From: Paenibacillus sp. FSL H7-0331
Lineage (GTDB): Bacteria; Bacillota; Bacilli; Paenibacillales; NBRC-103111
DNA length: 9,005 nt
Assembly (NCBI RefSeq): GCF_001956045.1
Contig: NZ_MRTH01000088.1
Location: 1-9,005 of the forward strand
Direction of reading: 5' to 3'
Positions within the stretch are counted from its first letter, which is position 1; every line of letters begins with the position of its first letter. A program made the position numbers and the translations under genes. Positions 555 through 9,005 of this stretch are shown one piece after another. The notes beneath the pieces were generated by a model. The model was given only the letters and a program-made list of their open reading frames with translations. It ran no database searches and was not told the DNA's origin.

Positions 555-590
555 CGGGTCATTTATATCAAATGGTAGTAATGCTAAAAA

Positions 591-656
591 AGTAAGATGT
601 ATCAAGTTAAAAAGGAAGATCCATCATTCTCGATAGATTAAGGATAGGCTTATAAT
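591..656 (+). promoter_or_regulatory. Promoter of the FAD oxidoreductase gene with a duplicated activator-type operator
   Basis: A perfect -10 TATAAT is at 651-656, with a poor -35 (TTCTCG, 627-632) 18 bp upstream. Directly upstream and overlapping the -35 is a 42-bp element (591-632) that recurs at 4517-4558 with 38 of 42 identities. It holds two direct half-sites, AAGATGTATCA (594-604) and AAGATCCATCA (616-626), 22 bp apart, which is about two helical turns. A weak -35 with tandem direct sites abutting it is the usual arrangement of an AraC-type activator-dependent promoter. Transcription should start near 663, leaving a leader of about 28 nt. The binding protein is inferred; the AraC-family gene at 2205-3035 is the nearest candidate. 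Confidence 0.75.
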
Positions 657-690: not shown

Positions 691-2211
691 ATGTACCAGG
701 AGAAACAGTACGATATTGTAATTTACGGAGGGACTGCGGCAGGTATTATGGCCGCTGTTCAAGCAAAAAAAATGGGTAAAAATGCAGTCGTGATCGAGCC
801 AAGTCAGCGAATTGGGGGCTTGACCACTGGAGGCCTGGGAGATACGGACTTCGGGATGAAGGAAGCTATCGGGGGCTTATCCTTGGAGTTTTACAAACGG
901 GTAGCTCAGAAATATTCACATGACGGAGCTTGCTGGCTGTTTGAACCTAAAGTAGCGCTCGAGGTTTTACAAGATTTGGTGGCGGAACATAACATCGAAG
1001 TCATATACGGAGAAAGGCTACGTCTAAAAGACGAGGTCACAAAGAAAGGTTCAAAAATTATCTCCATTTGCATGGAATCCGGGAACCTCTATCAAGGCAA
1101 AGTGTTTATTGATGCTACTTATGAAGGGGATTTAATGGGTAAATCGGGCGTATCCTATTTTGTCGGCCGGGAGTCCAATTCACAATATGGGGAGACATTA
1201 AACGGCATTCATCCTGGCAATGAACTCAATGAACTACCCAGCGGGATCGATCCATATGTCATTAAAGGGGTGCCCTCGAGCGGCTTGCTTTTGCGAGTCA
1301 ATCCTCACCGAGGAGGCAACATGGGCGATGGAGACACAAAGCTTCAAGCTTATAACTTCCGCATGTGTTTGACGAATAATCCGGACAACCGCCTGGAGAT
1401 CGAAAAGCCTGAGGGATATAACGAAGCCGATTATGAAATTTTGTTCCGGGCCATCGAGCAAGGGCAAAGTTCGAAATTTTTTAAATTGAATAAGGTAACT
1501 TCGGATAAGACAGATTCCAATAACAACAGTGGCATTTCTACGGATTATAACGGAATGAACCATAGTTATGCAGAGGCGGATTATCTTGAGCGGGAACACA
1601 TGTGGCATTCTCATCGCCTCTATCAGCAAGGCTATGTGTGGACCATTCAAAATCATCCGCGAGTGCCGGAGGAAATTCGGGCGGTCTACAAGCCATGGGG
1701 CTTGCCGCTCGATGAATTTATCGAGACAGGTCACTGGACTCCACAGTTATACATCAGAGAATCCCGCAGAATGATTAGTGACTATGTTGTGACCGAGCAT
1801 GTGGTCAGATTGGAAAAACCTGTGCTCGATTCCGTTGGAATGGGCTCCTTTGCCATGGACTCACATCACACGCAATATTATGTAAACGAAGACGGGCATG
1901 TTAGCACGGAAGGCGGATTTTACGTAAAATTAAAAGCCCCTTATCAGATAAGCTATCAAGCAATTGTGCCAAAACGGACAGAGTGCACCAATCTAATTGT
2001 GCCGGTATGTGTTTCGGCTACCCATGCAGCCTATGGTTCGATCAGGATGGAGCCCGTATTTATGATCCTGGGGCAATCGGCTGCGGCTGCAGCCGTTCTG
2101 GCACTTGATACGGATGGTATCGTTCAAAATGTAAAGTATGAGCAGCTTCATTCCCTGCTCGTTCAAGAAAATCAGGTATTATACGTAGACGTCCTAAGCA
2201 CGCATCAATAA
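691..2211 (+). CDS. FAD-dependent oxidoreductase, PF12831 type
   Basis: This 506-residue protein is a probable cytoplasmic flavoenzyme; no signal peptide or membrane segment is visible. The N-terminus is a Rossmann FAD-binding fold: the YDIVIYGGTAAGIMAA strand-loop-helix (residues 7-22, a GG-TAAG variant of GxGxxG), the acidic E36 at the end of strand 2, and the family-like IGGLTTGGLGDTDFG (41-55). Later family-like stretches are DATYEGDLM (141-149), IRESRRM (355-361) and IRMEPVFMILGQSAAAAA (451-468), the C-terminal FAD-contacting part. Relatives are sometimes labelled xanthan-lyase-related, but the substrate is unknown to me; a sugar or sugar acid is an inference from context. The start is fixed by AGGAGGAGG at 676-684, 6 nt before ATG. 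It is transcribed from its own promoter, which shares its operator with the sugar ABC operon. Its stop overlaps the convergent regulator gene by 7 bp. Confidence 0.85.
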   Translation: MYQEKQYDIVIYGGTAAGIMAAVQAKKMGKNAVVIEPSQRIGGLTTGGLGDTDFGMKEAIGGLSLEFYKRVAQKYSHDGACWLFEPKVALEVLQDLVAEHNIEVIYGERLRLKDEVTKKGSKIISICMESGNLYQGKVFIDATYEGDLMGKSGVSYFVGRESNSQYGETLNGIHPGNELNELPSGIDPYVIKGVPSSGLLLRVNPHRGGNMGDGDTKLQAYNFRMCLTNNPDNRLEIEKPEGYNEADYEILFRAIEQGQSSKFFKLNKVTSDKTDSNNNSGISTDYNGMNHSYAEADYLEREHMWHSHRLYQQGYVWTIQNHPRVPEEIRAVYKPWGLPLDEFIETGHWTPQLYIRESRRMISDYVVTEHVVRLEKPVLDSVGMGSFAMDSHHTQYYVNEDGHVSTEGGFYVKLKAPYQISYQAIVPKRTECTNLIVPVCVSATHAAYGSIRMEPVFMILGQSAAAAAVLALDTDGIVQNVKYEQLHSLLVQENQVLYVDVLSTHQ

Positions 2212-3035
2212 GGATTGAACCCATATCCAAATTTGCGCCGGTATTCGCCTGGGGGATGTCCAAATCGTTCGCGGAAAACTCGGCAAAAATGAGGGTAACT
2301 CTCAAAGCCTGTCTTTTCAGCAACCTGTTCCAGCGCAAGATTGCTGTAGAGCACCTGCTGCTGCGCAAGCTTTAGCCTAACGTCAATACAGTAGGCGAAC
2401 AGCGATTGGCCAAAAGCGGCTTTAAACAGATATGAGCAGCGTGAGACGCTTAATCCGACAGAGGCCGATATTTTTTCTAAACTAAGAGGTTCATTGGCAT
2501 GACTTTCTATAAATAGCTTAAGTTTATGAGCGATATCTGCTCCTTTGGTGCGTTGTTTGCTCTTAATTACTTGCTCCAGTGTCAAACAAAGCGTTCTAAG
2601 AAGGTAGTCCATGATCTCCTCTTGGTTCTGCATGACTTTTTTCTTTTCGCTGATAATATGCTTCCATAGGGTAATGACCGTATCGTCAAAGCCAATGTTT
2701 GTTTTAGTGGGCAAGTCTTTGTTTTTCCACCACGAGTCCAGCCATTCCCCGTTACCGGCCAGGAAATAGTCGCCGACAGGTTGAACCGCACCCGAATCAG
2801 GAGCGCTTCGGGGCTGCACATTGAGTTCGTATGGCTGATCCGGAGGATAGATGAGCAGGTCACCGGGGATGATGGTCTCGGATTTCCCTCCCACCAGTGC
2901 GCGACAGGATCCTTCTGACTGAAGCCGGAACATGTAGAAGTTCAGCCCGTCTTTATACGTAACGGAGTGAGGCTTAGTGTGGGTGAAATAATTAGCATAA
3001 ATGACGCTGGATTGGTGTTGAACTGACCTCGTCAT
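2205..3035 (-). CDS. AraC-family transcriptional regulator
   Basis: This 276-residue one-component regulator has an N-terminal cupin-like sensor half (about residues 25-90, with GDLLIYPPDQPYEL typical of the AraC_binding barrel), a helical linker, and a C-terminal double helix-turn-helix domain (about 170-268). The first HTH is LSLEKISASVGLSVSRCSYL and the second is ALEQVAEKTGF-SYPHFCRVF, followed by the family signature FRERFGHPPGEYRR. An upstream in-frame extension to 3239 exists on this strand, but ATG 3035 is the better start: GGAGG (3045-3049) lies 9 nt before it and the cupin begins soon after. Such proteins usually bind a sugar and activate nearby operons. It sits between two promoters that share a 22-bp-spaced direct repeat, so I infer that it activates the FAD oxidoreductase and ABC operon. 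Its 3' end overlaps the convergent gene's stop, with no terminator between them. Confidence 0.9.
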   Translation of the reverse strand: MTRSVQHQSSVIYANYFTHTKPHSVTYKDGLNFYMFRLQSEGSCRALVGGKSETIIPGDLLIYPPDQPYELNVQPRSAPDSGAVQPVGDYFLAGNGEWLDSWWKNKDLPTKTNIGFDDTVITLWKHIISEKKKVMQNQEEIMDYLLRTLCLTLEQVIKSKQRTKGADIAHKLKLFIESHANEPLSLEKISASVGLSVSRCSYLFKAAFGQSLFAYCIDVRLKLAQQQVLYSNLALEQVAEKTGFESYPHFCRVFRERFGHPPGEYRRKFGYGFNPY

Positions 3036-3071
3036 AGGAAGATTCCTCCAGAAAATAACTATTCTGCTCCG

Positions 3072-3100
3072 ATTATATAGTTTCTTCGTTGAGATTGACA
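3072..3100 (-). promoter_or_regulatory. Probable promoter of the AraC-family gene
   Basis: Read on the minus strand, a perfect TATAAT lies at 3077-3072. The matching -35 region around 3100-3095 (TGTCAA) is weak. Transcription would start near 3064 and give a leader of about 29 nt with the GGAGG site. On the plus strand the same AT-rich patch (3071-3080) could serve as an overlapping divergent -10 for the GH130-like gene, but no good -35 supports it. The GGAAGATTCC beside the regulator's ribosome binding site (3038-3047) resembles the GGAAGATCC of the shared operator, so weak autoregulation is possible. Confidence 0.45.
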
Positions 3101-3123
3101 GAGAAAAGAGAGGAAAACGGATA

Positions 3124-4359
3124 ATGAAACCAAATTTTAAATATTTAAATAAGCCGGCATTAGAACCGGTACCAGGCTGTGACTGGGCCAGCAAAATGGT
3201 GCTGAATCCTGCCATCGTGCAAGATCCAGAGTCGAGCACATTGCATATGTTGTTCAGGGCAACGGGTCCTTGGGCACAAAAGCGGAGAGAAGGCTGCCAC
3301 GACCCATACCCTATTTTCCTAGGCTATGCTACTAGCGAAGATAATGGGGAAACATGGGAAGCCGATTTCAGCGAGCCAGCGCTATCGCCGGCGTTAGGCT
3401 ATGAAGAACACGAACTTTACATTGCAGATATTCATGGAAATCGCGTACGCAATTATGCGAATGGCTGTATGGAAGATCCGCGTATCTTCCCAATTGAAGG
3501 GGAGCTATACGTTAGTGTGGCTTGTCGTCCATTTCCTCCGGGCCCTTATTGGCTGTCGGATGTCCAGACGAGATTTGAATATGTACCAGAGTGGATATTC
3601 AATGGAAGTGAAGCTGAAGACCCCTTTATTAAAACAGCGCGCTCCAATGATACTGTCACGGTTCTATATAAATTAGATTTGCAGCAGTTGAAAATGCGTA
3701 ACTATAGCGCAGCATTCCATTATATAGGCCCACTGACGGAAGGGCACGTTAGCGATAATCGGGACGTTTTTCTTTTTCCTGACAAAATGATGATTCAAGG
3801 GAATTCACAATATGTGATGCTTCATCGTCCAATGAACGTGTTACCGTTCGAGCGAGGAGCTGAAGTGAAGAAACCCTCTATCTACATAGCAGCTGCAAAT
3901 ACGATTGAGGACTTCGCTTCTCCGAAAGCAACGCATCGTCTGCTTGCGACGAGTGTCTTTCACTGGGAGGATAACCGCATTGGTGCAAGTTGGCCGCCAA
4001 TCCGTGTCTCGGACGACGAATGGCTCGTATCTTATCATGGAAAGAAAGACGTTGTGTTTGGCTACACGCAGTCCTTCATGATTGTGAAGGAGCAGCCGAA
4101 CGATTTCCCGGTAGTAACACATCGGTGCTCAGAGCGGCTGATGTTCGCAGAAAGAGAGTGGGAGATGCCTTCCGATTATCCGACGCCTTGCTTATTTACC
4201 ACAGCTGGTATCGTCGTGGGAGATGAGCTGATCATGTCATACGGTGCTGCTGATCAGAAAGTAGGAATTTCTTGGGTCAACTTTAAAGAGTTAACGGATT
4301 ACATCCGTTGTTTCGACGAGAACGGTAGTGCCATTAAAACATATTCGAAGCAAGATTGA
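3124..4359 (+). CDS. GH130-like beta-mannoside phosphorylase/hydrolase
   Basis: This 411-residue protein looks like a five-bladed beta-propeller of glycoside hydrolase family 130; no signal peptide is visible, so it is probably cytoplasmic. Family-like landmarks in order are LNPAIV (27-32), the catalytic-region MEDPRI (116-121, where D118 would be the general acid), NRDVFLFP (212-219), LHRP (233-236), IGASWPPI (286-293), YHGKKD (304-309) and the C-terminal SYGAADQKVG (372-381). GH130 members phosphorolyse or hydrolyse beta-mannosidic linkages; I cannot place this one in a phosphorylase or hydrolase clade by eye. The start ATG follows GAGAGG (3108-3113) by 10 nt. It is divergent from the AraC-type gene across an 88-bp gap and is closed by its own terminator. 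It lacks the shared 42-bp operator, so its regulation may differ from its neighbours. Confidence 0.8.
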   Translation: MKPNFKYLNKPALEPVPGCDWASKMVLNPAIVQDPESSTLHMLFRATGPWAQKRREGCHDPYPIFLGYATSEDNGETWEADFSEPALSPALGYEEHELYIADIHGNRVRNYANGCMEDPRIFPIEGELYVSVACRPFPPGPYWLSDVQTRFEYVPEWIFNGSEAEDPFIKTARSNDTVTVLYKLDLQQLKMRNYSAAFHYIGPLTEGHVSDNRDVFLFPDKMMIQGNSQYVMLHRPMNVLPFERGAEVKKPSIYIAAANTIEDFASPKATHRLLATSVFHWEDNRIGASWPPIRVSDDEWLVSYHGKKDVVFGYTQSFMIVKEQPNDFPVVTHRCSERLMFAEREWEMPSDYPTPCLFTTAGIVVGDELIMSYGAADQKVGISWVNFKELTDYIRCFDENGSAIKTYSKQD

Positions 4360-4412: not shown

Positions 4413-4464
4413 CTAAAAGGCATGAGTCCGGTACAGTGCCGAATTCATGCCTTTTAGTATTTTT
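4413..4464 (+). terminator. Rho-independent terminator after the GH130-like gene
   Basis: Arms at 4413-4431 and 4439-4457 form a 19-position stem. The outer 13 bp (CTAAAAGGCATGA against TCATGCCTTTTAG) are perfect, and one C-A mismatch and one G-U pair lie further in. The loop is TACAGTG and the tail is TATTTTT. It separates the GH130-like unit from the ABC transporter operon. Confidence 0.9.
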
Positions 4465-4516
4465 CGATTGGTGAGGAGTGCTCTTTCATTTATCCAAAAC
4501 ACCTTCTCATAAAAAC

Positions 4517-4582
4517 AGTAAGATTCATCAAGTATAAAAGGAAGATCCATCATTCTCGCCAATCAGGAAAGCGTTTTATAAT
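4517..4582 (+). promoter_or_regulatory. Promoter of the sugar ABC operon with a duplicated activator-type operator
   Basis: A perfect -10 TATAAT is at 4577-4582, with the same poor -35 (TTCTCG, 4553-4558) at 18 bp as in the promoter at 591-656. The 42-bp element 4517-4558 differs from the upstream copy at only four positions and is ungapped. Its half-sites are AAGATTCATCA (4520-4530) and AAGATCCATCA (4542-4552), again 22 bp apart. Similarity stops sharply at the -35, apart from the -10, which argues for a functional operator rather than a recent DNA duplication. Transcription should start near 4589. Confidence 0.8.
4565..4579 (+). promoter_or_regulatory. cre-like site between -35 and -10 of the ABC operon
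   Basis: AGGAAAGCGTTTTAT fits the catabolite-responsive element consensus WTGNAANCGNWNNCW with two mismatches and keeps the AA-CG core. It lies in the promoter spacer, running into the -10, where CcpA binding would block RNA polymerase. The matching spacer of the FAD oxidoreductase promoter has no such site. The match is imperfect, so this is moderate evidence only. Confidence 0.45.
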
Positions 4583-4589
4583 AGTGTTT

Positions 4590-4688
4590 GTAGGCTAGTG
4601 CCGCAGAGATCACGTCTCGATAGCCGGTGCTTCGAACTTGATAGTAGTCTTTAAGATTAAAATCTAACAACTTGGAGGTGAACGGGAT
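4590..4688 (+). other. Leader of about 100 nt of the ABC operon with a weak nested hairpin
   Basis: From the inferred start near 4589 the leader runs about 100 nt to ATG 4689. GGCTA (4593-4597) can pair with TAGCC (4621-4625) around an inner GAGA/TCTC hairpin (4606-4609 with 4615-4618). A further AGAT/ATCT hairpin (about 4653-4664) lies shortly before the ribosome binding site. Stems are short and no T-run follows, and I recognise no known riboswitch class. It may be a plain long leader. Confidence 0.25.
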
Positions 4689-5645
4689 ATGAGCGTTAGA
4701 ACATTGGAAGTGAAACAAGGTGTCGGAACGGTGAAGGTTGGTAAGAATAGGTGGAAACTGTTTCTCACAAACTTAGATCTCTATGTTTTGCTAATTCCGG
4801 GACTATTATTTTTACTGCTATTCAAATATACGCCCATGTATGGAATTATCATTGCGTTCATGGATTTCAACATTTTCGATGGGTTTACGGGAAGTAAATG
4901 GGTTGGTTTGGCGCAATTCGAGAAATTACTCCATTCGGAAGAATTTATGCAAGTATTTATCAACACACTCTTAATCAGTTTGTACAAGCTTGTGCTTCTC
5001 TTTCCAGTTCCGATTATTATCGCGCTACTGCTGAATGAAGTACGTAAGAGCTGGTTCAAGCGTTCGATTCAAACTATTATTTTTCTGCCGCATTTCTTGT
5101 CTTGGGTTATTATTTCCGGACTGTTCATTACCATACTCTCCCCAAGCGGAGGTTTGGTCAACAATGTGATTGAGTTTTTGGGTGGTACACCGATATCGTT
5201 CTTTCTTGATAATCACTATTTCCGAAGCGTGCTGGTGTTTACCGCAGGTTGGAAGGAATCTGGATGGAACGCGATTATCTTTATTGCGGCGATTGCCGGC
5301 ATTGAGCAAGAGCAATATGAAGCAGCATCCATTGATGGGGCTGGGCGAATTCGCCAGATGATGCACATTACCCTGCCGGGTATCATGCCTACGATTATCC
5401 TGATCCTTGTCTTGCGTCTCGGATATTTACTCGAAGCAGGTACGGAACAAATTTTGACCATGTATAATTCCGTTGTTTATCAATCTGGTGATGTCATTGG
5501 GACTTATGTATATCGAATAGGTCTAGGACAGCAAGACTATAGCTTTAGTACAGCAGTAGGTTTATTTAATTCCGTAATTGGATTCCTCTTGATCGTTTTG
5601 GGCAATGAGCTCAGCAAAAAAGTCGTCAAGCGAAGCATTTGGTAG
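4689..5645 (+). CDS. Sugar ABC transporter permease, LplB-like (CUT1)
   Basis: This is a 318-residue inner-membrane subunit of a carbohydrate importer. About six hydrophobic segments are visible, starting with YVLLIPGLLFLLLFKYTPMYG (32-52, trimmed here to its recognisable core). The cytoplasmic EAA loop that contacts the ATPase is QYEAASIDGAGRIRQMMHIT followed by LPGIMPT (209-235). The KYTPMYG and LYKL/FLPHFLSWV patches are typical of the LplB/polysaccharide permease group in Bacillus and Paenibacillus. It starts 8 nt after GGAGGTG (4674-4680). It is the first gene of the operon and its stop lies 11 nt before the next start, so the pair should be co-translated. No ATPase gene is in the window; such importers in this phylum usually borrow a shared MsmX-type ATPase. 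The substrate is inferred to be an oligosaccharide. Confidence 0.92.
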   Translation: MSVRTLEVKQGVGTVKVGKNRWKLFLTNLDLYVLLIPGLLFLLLFKYTPMYGIIIAFMDFNIFDGFTGSKWVGLAQFEKLLHSEEFMQVFINTLLISLYKLVLLFPVPIIIALLLNEVRKSWFKRSIQTIIFLPHFLSWVIISGLFITILSPSGGLVNNVIEFLGGTPISFFLDNHYFRSVLVFTAGWKESGWNAIIFIAAIAGIEQEQYEAASIDGAGRIRQMMHITLPGIMPTIILILVLRLGYLLEAGTEQILTMYNSVVYQSGDVIGTYVYRIGLGQQDYSFSTAVGLFNSVIGFLLIVLGNELSKKVVKRSIW

Positions 5646-5656
5646 GAGGTGCAGCT

Positions 5657-6532
5657 ATGAAAAAGAAAACAATCGGTGACTGGTCCCTAGATATCTGCGT
5701 ATATGCTACGCTGCTATTGTCTAGCGTGCTTACGCTATTGCCTATGCTCAATGTACTATCCAAAGCATTAAGTAATGAATCAGCGGTCATCTCGGGTAAG
5801 GTCGGCATTCTGCCTGTGGGCTTTCAACTAGAAACGATGAAATATGTTGTATCTTCAAGTCAGTTTTTACATTCGATCTCCGTATCCATTATTGTCATGG
5901 TTGTGGGAACAGTGCTCGCCATTATGTTGACGGCTTTGACGGCTTACCCACTATCCAAGAAGCATCTGCCAGGAATTCCATTTGTCTTGATCCTGTTCAT
6001 TTTTACGATGTTGTTTAATGGTGGCATCATTCCCAATTACATACTAATGAAGGAACTCCACCTCATCAATAGTTTGTGGTCCTTAATGCTGCCTGCACTG
6101 ATTAGCGTGTTTAATCTATTGGTAATTAAGAGCTATTATGAATCTTTACCTGAAGCGTTAGAGGAGTCAGCCAAAATGGATGGGGCTCGTAATTTTACGA
6201 TTCTTTTCCGTATCATTCTTCCGCTAAGTACGCCGGTTATTGCTACAATCGCGCTATTCTATGCGGTATATTTCTGGAATGACTACTTTCACCCTATGCT
6301 GTATATTTCGAAAGCAAGTTTGAAACCATTGCAATTATATCTAAGGGATATTGTCATGGATGCAGATAGCTCGACTGCCCTGAATAGCAGTGTAGACGAT
6401 ATGATGAAAATTTCGCCTGAAGGCATACGATCGGCGACAGTTATTGCTTCTATTATTCCGATGCTGCTCGTCTATCCGTTTCTCCAAAAGCATTTCGTCA
6501 AAGGTGTTCTGATTGGCTCAGTGAAAGGCTAG
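5657..6532 (+). CDS. Sugar ABC transporter permease, YtcP-like (CUT1)
   Basis: This 291-residue partner permease has an N-terminal membrane segment (about 15-35), LTAYPLSKKHLPG (94-106), the typical MLFNGGIIPNYILMKELHLI (118-137), and the EAA loop LPEALEESAKMDGARNFTIL continuing to LPLSTPV (164-194). The C-terminus FLQKHFVKGVLIGSVKG is characteristic of the group. The frame is open upstream to a TTG at 5639 overlapping the previous stop, but ATG 5657 is chosen because AGGAGGT (5644-5650) lies 6 nt before it and MKKK is a normal start. It should form a heterodimer with the preceding permease. A 66-nt gap separates it from the binding-protein gene, with no terminator visible there. Confidence 0.92.
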   Translation: MKKKTIGDWSLDICVYATLLLSSVLTLLPMLNVLSKALSNESAVISGKVGILPVGFQLETMKYVVSSSQFLHSISVSIIVMVVGTVLAIMLTALTAYPLSKKHLPGIPFVLILFIFTMLFNGGIIPNYILMKELHLINSLWSLMLPALISVFNLLVIKSYYESLPEALEESAKMDGARNFTILFRIILPLSTPVIATIALFYAVYFWNDYFHPMLYISKASLKPLQLYLRDIVMDADSSTALNSSVDDMMKISPEGIRSATVIASIIPMLLVYPFLQKHFVKGVLIGSVKG

Positions 6533-6598: not shown

Positions 6599-8146
6599 AT
6601 GTTGAAGAAAAACAAAAAGCTGATGCTCGTTTCGCTTACAGCTTGCTTGTCAGCTTCATCGCTCGTTGCTTGTTCCTCAGGTGGTACCAGCTCAAGTAGC
6701 TCCACGTCACCAGCATCAGTATCAGCACCGACGGCAGCGGCTGTAAAGCCGGAACTAAAGTCTCTGCAAATTTGGCAAAAGGATGATTATAACACGTATC
6801 CTGTTGCTACATATTTGGAAAAAGCGACGGGTTATAAAGTTCAGTATGATATGCTTCCACAGGATAAACCCCAAGATAAACTGAATATCCTGATTGCTTC
6901 GGGAGAGCCATACGATGTGGTGACTACAGCAGGAACCACAGATTTTAAAGCGCTTTATTCCGATTATGCGAAAAAGGGGGCATTAGTGGATCTTGGACCG
7001 TTAATTGATAAATACGGGCCGAACATTAAAGCTGTCATTGATCCTGAAGCTTTAGAAGCTGCCAAGGTAGATGGGAAGCTATATGCCATTCCAACGAAAA
7101 GCACCAAGACTGTTAATACAGATTTATACATTCGGCAGGATTGGTTGGATAAAGTCGGACTCAAAATGCCGACAACACTTGATGAACTTGTTACAGTTTT
7201 GAAAGCGTTTAAAGAAAAAGATCCAGGCGGGAATGGCGATGGGAATATTCCTTTAACCGTCGGTGGTGATTCATCCTTTATTCCAAATATTGTTGGTGCT
7301 TTCGGCATGCCGAATTTCTGGAATGATGTGAATGGTAAATTAACACCTCGTGTGTTGGATCCCGCCTTCAAAGATTATGCAGCGTTTGTATCTGATTTAT
7401 TTAAACAAGGCTTAATTGATAAAGAATTTGCTGCCAATAAGGCAGCAACTACGAAAGAGAAATTTACAAGCGGTAAGGCCGGTATTCTTATGATGAACTG
7501 GTCGGATGTCCCTACGATTGCTGATGCTTTAACGAAAAATATTCCAACTGCGAAAGCAACGTTTATCCCTGCAGTGCAAGGTAAAGATGGTAAAACAGGC
7601 CTATCTGCTTCGAAAGGCTTTGACCGTATTACCTTCATCCCAAAAGCATCCAAGCATCCGGAAGATGCCATTAAATGGATGAATGCGAAGCTGGAAAAAG
7701 ATACGTTCAGAACGATGGCTATTGGGGAAGAAAATAAACATTACACGCTCAAAGATGGTGCATATTCACCGATCCAACCGATCTTTACCGATGAGCGGAA
7801 TCAAGCGAATAACTTCTTAACGGGAACGGACGATAAGAACTACCCAATTTATTGGCAGGCACGTGTACGTAAGGATATGCGTCTGTACGATGCCTGGAAT
7901 TCATTGAATGGATTAGCGCCTGAACCTACCAAAGTAACTGATCTTCTAGGTTACGCACCATATATGGTGGAATTCTCCAAGAACTTTCAAAGTCTAAATA
8001 CGCAATCTAACGATTACACAACCAAGTTAATTTTTGGTGCTGAGCCGTTTACGGGGATTGATGCATTCATTGCCAAATTCAAATCATCAGGCGGGGACGC
8101 TAGCTACAAAGAAGTCAATGACTGGTATGCAACTGTGAAAAAGTAA
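6599..8146 (+). CDS. Extracellular solute-binding lipoprotein of the sugar ABC importer
   Basis: This 515-residue protein is the membrane-anchored substrate receptor. Residues 1-24 are a lipoprotein signal peptide (MLKKNKK, then a hydrophobic core) with lipobox LVAC, so C25 is the lipidated residue. A Ser/Ala/Thr-rich linker (26-50) precedes the mature fold. The body is a type 1 extracellular solute-binding protein of the LipO/YtcQ kind: LQIWQKDDYNTYPVATYLEK (57-76), GKLYAIPTKSTKTVNTDLYIR (159-179 in part), WLDKVGLKMPTTLDEL (182-197), and an acidic-glycine loop DPGGNGDGNIPLT (208-220) of a type common in these proteins and suggestive of metal binding. GGGAGGG at 6585-6591 lies 7 nt before ATG. 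It is third in the operon after the two permeases. The ligand cannot be read from sequence; a plant-derived oligosaccharide fits the neighbouring enzymes. Confidence 0.93.
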   Translation: MLKKNKKLMLVSLTACLSASSLVACSSGGTSSSSSTSPASVSAPTAAAVKPELKSLQIWQKDDYNTYPVATYLEKATGYKVQYDMLPQDKPQDKLNILIASGEPYDVVTTAGTTDFKALYSDYAKKGALVDLGPLIDKYGPNIKAVIDPEALEAAKVDGKLYAIPTKSTKTVNTDLYIRQDWLDKVGLKMPTTLDELVTVLKAFKEKDPGGNGDGNIPLTVGGDSSFIPNIVGAFGMPNFWNDVNGKLTPRVLDPAFKDYAAFVSDLFKQGLIDKEFAANKAATTKEKFTSGKAGILMMNWSDVPTIADALTKNIPTAKATFIPAVQGKDGKTGLSASKGFDRITFIPKASKHPEDAIKWMNAKLEKDTFRTMAIGEENKHYTLKDGAYSPIQPIFTDERNQANNFLTGTDDKNYPIYWQARVRKDMRLYDAWNSLNGLAPEPTKVTDLLGYAPYMVEFSKNFQSLNTQSNDYTTKLIFGAEPFTGIDAFIAKFKSSGGDASYKEVNDWYATVKK

Positions 8147-8446: not shown

Positions 8447-9005
8447 ATGTTTACAATGACAAGAAAATTAGTCGGCCTGTTGGTAGTGCTTGCCATCATA
8501 ATCATAGGTTTGTTATCCCGAACGGTTGGAGCAGCTCCAGCTACGATTCAGAATTACCCGATGCCATCCATCTATACCGCATCCAGTGTATTTTCATTGA
8601 AAGCGGATAACCAATCAATTCCTGTGATCAACTATAAGGATGACTATGACTACGCTCAATTTTCTTTTGCCGGCACGGTCAGTATTGAGGTTACTGCTAA
8701 TGTGCCGATTACATCCTATTCCATCAGTCCAATGGCCAAGAACATCGAGGGGACGGTTAATGGGAACAAGCTAACGTTTACGCTTTCTTCCTCAACCTAT
8801 GTGATCGTAAAAATCAATGACCAGACGAAGAGAATTGTCATCGCAGCAGATCCCTTGGAGACGAATATTCCCCCGTCCACAGGTGCCGGGATTTATAATG
8901 TGACCCATTCGCCATACAACGCGGATAATACGGGGACATCGATGGCATCGAACGCGATTCAGCAGGCTATCGATGCCGCCTATCAAGCTGGCGGTGGCAT
9001 TGTAT
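8447..9005 (+). CDS. Secreted right-handed beta-helix glycosidase/lyase (GH28/GH49-like), 5' part
   Basis: The first 186 codons are present and the gene runs off the right edge. Residues 1-30 form a signal peptide: MTRK, a long hydrophobic core (LVGLLVVLAIIIIGLL), and probable cleavage near VGAA-PAT. Residues about 38-137 look like a beta-sandwich N-terminal domain of the GH49/GH28-associated kind (IPVINYKDDYDYAQFSF, then PITSYSISP, then YVIVKI and IVIAADP). From about 148, GIYNVTHSPYNADNTGTSMA and then AIQQAIDAAYQAGGGIV is the classic entry to a pectate-lyase/GH28-type beta-helix (AIQ-AID-A--GGG-V). AAGGAGGT (8433-8440) lies 6 nt before ATG. The protein is exported and likely cleaves a polysaccharide; pectin-type and dextran-type substrates cannot be separated without the missing catalytic part. 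It appears to be its own transcription unit with cre control. Confidence 0.8.
   Translation, partial: MFTMTRKLVGLLVVLAIIIIGLLSRTVGAAPATIQNYPMPSIYTASSVFSLKADNQSIPVINYKDDYDYAQFSFAGTVSIEVTANVPITSYSISPMAKNIEGTVNGNKLTFTLSSSTYVIVKINDQTKRIVIAADPLETNIPPSTGAGIYNVTHSPYNADNTGTSMASNAIQQAIDAAYQAGGGIV

Follow-up and report, generated by a model that had tools for sequence, protein, structure and literature searches.

A tandem operator linked to an AraC/XylS-type regulator and its apparent capture by a sugar importer operon in Paenibacillus

Overview

The window analysed here, a stretch of 9,005 nucleotides from Paenibacillus sp. FSL H7-0331, carries two copies of a 47-bp element, one before a flavoenzyme gene and one before a sugar ABC importer operon. 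Both copies are very probably operators of an AraC/XylS-type regulator encoded between them, which would act by class II activation as a ligand-loaded dimer, and the importer copy would have arisen by promoter exchange. The entry of the importer into the regulon appears to be a recent and traceable promoter capture, and this is the new point here. If it is true, the importer has come under a regulator whose target elsewhere is one promoter only. A patchily distributed, uncharacterised regulator would also gain a precise candidate operator, and a flavoenzyme family that lacks a closely related solved structure would be tied to sugar uptake, which narrows its substrate range. P. oryzisoli and P. 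plantarum on the one hand and P. qinlingensis on the other would form a natural before/after set for a change of the importer's regulator by promoter exchange.

The genes of the window and a probable terminator are the following:

691..2211, + strand: flavoenzyme gene, the operator's usual target (PF12831 FAD_oxidored, Pfam E 1.8e-102)
2205..3035, - strand: AraC/XylS-type regulator gene, 276 aa, product the presumed binder of both operators (PF12833/PF00165)
3124..4359, + strand: GH130-family gene (PF04041), a frequent neighbour with a tblastn match in 21/32 relatives' loci
4413..4457, + strand: 22-nt hairpin followed by a T-rich stretch, a probable terminator upstream of operator 2 (from the sequence)
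4689..5645, + strand: sugar ABC importer permease 1 (PF00528, UgpA-like)
5657..6532, + strand: sugar ABC importer permease 2 (PF00528, GlcU/UgpE-like)
6599..8146, + strand: importer solute-binding lipoprotein (weak NCBIfam matches to carbohydrate-binding proteins, below cut-offs)
8447..9004, + strand: start of a probably secreted protein (related gene in 9/32 loci)

The regulator and the flavoenzyme are 96% and 94% identical, respectively, to their counterparts in P. qinlingensis, and a cluster that matches the regulator at 100% identity bears the name 'unclassified Paenibacillus'. No Pfam match was obtained for the solute-binding lipoprotein (6599-8146) or for the 186 aa of the 8447-9004 product that lie inside the window. 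An 884-aa relative of the latter in P. qinlingensis (L115, 2655-5309) has GH28-like and PF06439 domains.

Structure of the operator

The first observation, an ungapped match of 38/42 positions between the blocks 591-632 and 4517-4558, is confirmed. No other ungapped 42-base pair in the window comes near this figure, the next best having 29 identities, and the top match in each of 10 mononucleotide shuffles of the window reached 26-29. With up to 3 mismatches, AAGATNNATCA-N11-AAGATNNATCA occurs exactly twice in the window, in the two blocks, and 0.02 times on average in 200 dinucleotide shuffles. TATAAT starts at 651 and 4577, 18 bp past each block, as originally described. This gap holds for both window promoters but not for all relatives: it is 18 bp in 27/35 operators and 17 bp in 8/35. 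The block itself had been drawn slightly short, since the conserved A-rich bases before it are part of the element, which is 5 bp longer and covers 586-632 and 4512-4558. Likewise the two direct half-sites are spaced 22 bp apart as claimed, but their unit is longer than AAGATNNATCA, namely AAAANAGNAAGATNCATCA. The poor -35 (TTCTCG) reported at the end of the block is present in the sequence as a weak -35 abutting the proximal half-site.

Compared among relatives, the element therefore has 47 bp and consists of two tandem half-sites AAAANAGNAAGATNCATCA with a 22-bp period and the weak -35 at its end. Its parts lie in the window as follows:

586..632, + strand: operator 1, full element, before the flavoenzyme gene (column conservation, 19 nonredundant operators; identical to P. 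qinlingensis at 47/47 positions, the 72 bp upstream at 59/72)
586..604, + strand: promoter-distal half-site of operator 1 (half-site scan, 1 mismatch)
608..626, + strand: promoter-proximal half-site of operator 1, 22 bp from the distal one (half-site scan, 1 mismatch)
627..632, + strand: weak -35 TTCTCG abutting the proximal half-site of operator 1 (from the sequence; 17-18 bp to the -10 in relatives)
651..656, + strand: -10 TATAAT of the flavoenzyme promoter (sequence match, spacer analysis)
4512..4558, + strand: operator 2, the apparently captured copy, before the importer operon (conservation and alignment)
4512..4530, + strand: promoter-distal half-site of operator 2 (half-site scan, 0 mismatches)
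4534..4552, + strand: promoter-proximal half-site of operator 2 (half-site scan, 1 mismatch)
4577..4582, + strand: -10 TATAAT of the importer promoter (sequence match, spacer analysis)

The operator set comprised 33 operators from 32 loci of 31 genomes and the two of the window, 35 in all, with 26 distinct cores. In 19 nonredundant promoters the conserved part, AAAACAGTAAGATNCATCAANTNNAAAAGGAAGATCCATCATTCTCG, begins at -8 of the core and ends near +38, and its edges are sharp: conservation in the flanks is low at once, the -10 region excepted. Over the 35 operators the identity of the element to itself shifted by 22 bp is 64%, against 18-43% for other shifts of 8 to 30, a figure which carries the assumption of 22-bp spacing made in the operator searches (patterns and PWM).

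The available text of PMC4514859 describes the operators of dimeric AraC/XylS proteins (XylS, MekR, AraC and MtlR of Pseudomonas fluorescens) as tandem half-sites of two short boxes each, located upstream of the -35. In the printed consensus sequences the period is 21 bp in XylS and MekR; MtlR has 22 bp (AGTGC-N5-AGTAT-N7-AGTGC-N5-AGGAT), with a site just before the -35 that takes up at least 37 bp (PMC4514859). As far as that text goes, the present elements resemble the XylS, MekR and MtlR sites in their tandem two-box half-sites, here with a 22-bp period and 47 bp ending on the -35. They differ from the XylS, MekR, AraC and MtlR sites in sequence and in that the binder is here a presumed one. 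The AraC-like half-site geometry noticed at the outset is the same as in these published operators, with direct half-sites 21-22 bp apart; in the 35 operators the proximal half-site stands next to a weak -35, followed by a good -10 at 17-18 bp. By analogy, the putative operator is of a known kind, the AraC/XylS class II type.

Proposed mode of action

Class II activation, both as a term and as a mechanism, is known from the AraC family. In the mechanism that we propose, the two tandem half-sites, with their 22-bp period, would present one face of the DNA to a regulator dimer, probably sugar-loaded, and the protein would recruit RNA polymerase from the proximal half-site, next to the weak -35. 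The flavoenzyme gene would be the general target. The ligand is probably an oligosaccharide or its product, as suggested by the neighbouring genes (GH130 in 21/32 loci, GH28-like in 9/32).

It is the geometry of the promoters that suggests activation rather than repression. AraC itself represses in the absence of arabinose, and a half-site next to the -35 is compatible with activation or repression, so that the regulator might mainly repress, or both activate and repress. We consider this unlikely, since the combination of a weak -35 with a perfect -10 in both window promoters is the usual sign of activator dependence. Nor did the 32 fetched stretches (6-19.5 kb) contain a half-site suited to looping far from the operator beyond single 3-mismatch half-sites in 6/32; one of these six, in L123, lies a short way before the regulator gene. 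As to autoregulation, the 3036-3123 gap that separates the regulator gene from the GH130 gene gave no operator in a PWM scan of the window (threshold 12).

The putative regulator

The C-terminal domain of the regulator contains the two helix-turn-helix motifs of AraC/XylS regulators (PF12833, 2.3e-19; AF2 helices at 186-258), and its Foldseek matches were MarA, SoxS, AdpA-DNA and YesN. In the structure model (pLDDT 85.7, pTM 0.56) the N-terminal domain has by its fold the character of a cupin-like sugar domain, with Foldseek TM (target) of 0.63-0.73 to AraC and 0.71-0.77 to BgaR, and it is thus predicted to resemble AraC and the lactose sensor BgaR. Within the DNA-binding domain C216, Q226 and H249 are fixed in 54/54 orthologs and different in 5/5 distant relatives in the homolog alignment, a pattern that would fit a conserved operator.

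Genes of a histidine kinase and a YesN-type response regulator (by Pfam) are located before the regulator gene in L110 (5711-9095), and counterparts of this pair, recognised by clustering, are found before the regulator gene in L128 (5490-8865).

From the same genus, MsmR1 of Paenibacillus polymyxa SC2 is an AraC/XylS-type regulator of sugar metabolism studied by ChIP-seq; in the available text of PMC9722767 its authors report many targets, autoregulation and two motifs, neither of them with a palindrome or inverted repeat. The present regulator is likened to MsmR1 by that description, as an AraC/XylS-type regulator of the same genus, and not by sequence or motif. In the open-licence literature we found no description of the operator or of the regulator, and there was nothing on bacterial regulation among the matches listed for the motif strings.

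Association of operator and regulator

The original prediction had named the AraC-type protein encoded at 2205-3035 as the binder, and comparison of genomes supports the use of the operator by this linked regulator. In a sample of 392 genomes of the order, with at most 6 regulator candidates scored per genome, regulator orthologs of at least 72% identity were present in 28, followed by a gap down to 47%; the ortholog of G329 is split over two frames. The operator was sought as AAGATNNRTCA-N11-AAGATNNATCATT with at most 1 mismatch, R and TT having been set after the relatives' operators were known. It was present in 28/28 genomes with a regulator ortholog and in 1/364 without, and the reversed control gave 0. 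The Fisher p of 5.8e-42 for this co-occurrence overstates the independent evidence because the genomes are related. In the related genomes scanned, as had been foreseen, the motif occurs wherever the orthologous regulator does and is not scattered at random. The lone match without a regulator, in G026, has 1 mismatch and lies inside a 266-codon open stretch, and no window protein was found in the 3 kb fetched around it.

Operator and regulator occupy the same locus, so co-inheritance of one block could yield much the same table. There are two escapes from simple co-inheritance, namely the genome G157 and the importer copy. A flavoenzyme of at least 78% identity is present in 27/28 regulator genomes. 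The exception is G157, which has only a 56% homologue and has kept regulator and operator despite the loss of the flavoenzyme ortholog. In this locus (L099, G157:C107, 3633-6174) the operator faces the regulator gene from the 3' side, with a very short ORF following and no evident target; the 56% homologue lies on the other side, without an operator. Twelve further genomes with only 50-61% flavoenzyme homologues had no operator. Because G157 keeps both operator and regulator while genomes with 50-61% flavoenzymes lack the operator, the operator tracks the regulator and not the enzyme family. The loci around regulator relatives of 37-47% identity (L130-L134) carried the operator in 0/5 cases. 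Among the operators found, that of L123 (P. sp. HB172176) scores 33.5 and the others 50.3-71.8.

These figures also bear on the idea that a different protein, either another AraC-type protein or a response regulator, binds the operator and that the linked regulator is only co-inherited. Candidates are plentiful, with 1 up to 391 AraC-like ones per genome among the genomes listed, and the regulator gene of L110 has a kinase/YesN-type pair before it, with clustered counterparts in L128. Nevertheless the distribution of the operator with this one ortholog, its retention in G157 without the flavoenzyme ortholog and its absence from the five loci of distant regulator relatives make another binder decidedly improbable.

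The regulon as predicted, joining the flavoenzyme to the importer, would exist in the window and in P. qinlingensis but is not the general state. In 31/32 regulator loci (31 relatives) there is one operator, normally before the flavoenzyme gene, and only L115 of P. qinlingensis has two.

Origin of the importer promoter

In relatives the importer has a different promoter. From 30 genomes of the genus, 21 of them past the permease limit, 20 importer loci (at least 84% identity) were fetched. In 19/20 of these the importer is preceded by a different conserved element, close to ACCAGAAACANAAANATNACCATCTAC, with a TATAAT-like box shortly after it. The native element is missing from one locus, the operator-2 copy of P. 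qinlingensis, and likewise from the window. With 2 mismatches allowed the native element was found in 20/30 genomes (reversed control 0), and the second importer copy of P. qinlingensis (G009:C34) has it.

The native element reads ACCATAAGATTGCACCAGAAACAGAAATATTACCATCTACA in many of L167-L186, for example at G197:C8:145024-145050, and in G070 a second copy (2 mismatches) lies 5 kb away.

The importer operator was also considered as an old, degenerate one, and this was rejected because the regions upstream of native importers score so low. Three native importer leaders gave best PWM scores of -34.9 to -30.8, near the background (shuffled 200-bp sequences: mean -30.5, 99% point -14.0). In the 323 bp upstream of 19 native importers no operator was found either, the scores being -34.9 to -7.7, compared with 69.4 for the P. 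qinlingensis copy; three of the 19 regions were slightly above -14.0 and far below 69.4.

The sequence around operator 2 has a composite structure, in which 4456-4503 matches the native importer region (80-81% to L114, L117 and L118) and two further segments stand out:

4510..4597, + strand: flavoenzyme-promoter-like segment (blastn, alignment; 86-88% over 86-88 bp to L114, L118)
4660..4690, + strand: ribosome-binding region of the native leader, retained before the importer (blastn over 31 bp: L114 94%, L117 90%)

Around 4660-4690 the leader is also 80% identical to L118 over 46 bp (blastn). The 4510-4597 segment matches the flavoenzyme promoter of L118 (P. plantarum; 88% over 86 bp) and the relic in G014 (86% over 88 bp), and those of L101 (87%, 79 bp) and L124 (86%, 83 bp) match it as well. 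With operator 1 as found in the window's own lineage (L115, L116) the match is limited to 47 bp. By these match lengths operator 2 resembles operator 1 less than it does the flavoenzyme promoters found in other species.

The relic in G014 (Paenibacillus sp. Soil766, a sister species) is a decayed flavoenzyme/regulator copy with a 2-mismatch operator (G014:C39, L114 4846-6036). It shows in order the operator, a flavoenzyme gene with a large internal loss, a regulator gene with two stops, and the importer with its native promoter. This arrangement is a possible intermediate of the capture. Because the operator and the importer promoter stand at its opposite ends, simple deletion does not explain the arrangement of the window, and promoter copying or recombination is needed.

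The importer copy of the operator looks like a derived state shared with P. qinlingensis. The usual control element of the importer operon would have been replaced, in the lineage of the window and that species, by a promoter module of the flavoenzyme type, and the importer has thereby probably been rewired to the regulator; we infer the direction of the exchange from the distribution of the two promoter types. The record of the capture seems nearly complete, and the account we favour, with some reserve, is that an operator-promoter module of about 90 bp, probably from an adjacent decaying flavoenzyme/regulator duplicate, took over the importer and doubled the regulon in one step.

The available text of PMC5890482, citing Oren et al. 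2014, speaks of regulatory switching or horizontal regulatory transfer when a conserved gene has its upstream intergenic region exchanged for one that is non-homologous or highly divergent. The importer resembles the cases outlined there in that an unrelated region has replaced the one before an orthologous gene, with flanking native sequence retained. Beyond that description, close species here show between them the donor-type promoter, a decayed copy of the donor locus and the recipient, and there is a candidate for the regulator.

Operator 2 could be a non-functional relic of promoter duplication that exerts no control over the importer. It probably does stem from duplication or recombination, and in G014 a decayed flavoenzyme/regulator copy with an operator is found beside the importer. 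Yet between the window and P. qinlingensis operator 2 is kept at 46/47 positions and its -10 at 6/6, whereas the surroundings are less conserved (upstream 44/72, leader 63/78, permease third codon positions 282/318). Moreover, there is no other exact TATAAT between operator 2 and the importer start. There is accordingly little chance that operator 2 is such a relic, and a functional, regulator-dependent importer promoter remains the preferred reading.

Distribution beyond the family

A species-wide scan for exact AAGATNNATCA-N11-AAGATNNATCA in one genome per species (84,980 species, contigs of at least 3 kb) gave 40 loci, 15 of them in Paenibacillaceae according to record titles. In 15/15 Paenibacillaceae loci a flavoenzyme ortholog (78-96% identity) lies downstream of the operator, and the regulator was within the fetched stretch at 14/15, the fifteenth (L013) showing it in the longer stretch L120. 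At most 2 mismatches gave 27 matches in these 15 genomes, namely 16 exact operators, the 2-mismatch operator of G014:C39 and 10 others, which we judged as a group to be chance matches from their unrelated spacers; a reversed pattern gave 3. That the element is a chance similarity or a dispersed repeat can practically be dismissed: the two-half-site core does occur outside Paenibacillaceae (25/40 loci), but none of the seven window proteins was found there (tblastn 1e-10), and each of the 15 Paenibacillaceae genomes has one convincing copy save G009 (P. qinlingensis) with two and G014 with one and the relic.

In L019, L020, L023 and L040 (Candidatus Aminicenantes) AAGATNNATCA units occur with a 22-bp period and mostly CCCCTACA-like spacers; these loci are unrelated to the window proteins, and the arrays possibly represent another operator or repeat family.

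The flavoenzyme and other features

For the flavoenzyme a single-sequence search gave no PDB relative and a profile search gave 3 weak matches, while Foldseek indicated a general FAD-binding fold only (TM to query 0.17-0.34 among the matches listed). A 3-keto-sugar pathway, considered from the combination of the flavoenzyme with PF06439, was not adopted; PF06439 is presumably a broad lectin-like family. In P. sanguinis (L128, 16076-18535) the importer is followed by another GH130 gene and another PF12831 flavoenzyme gene, each the second of its kind, and since such a pair recurs there, GH130 and PF12831 may form a recurring functional unit.

Near the start of the window, positions 60-81 and 86-107 form an almost perfect inverted repeat of 22 nt around a 4-nt loop. 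Another, partial copy lies at 117-137, and the whole (60-137) may be a small mobile or REP-like repeat.
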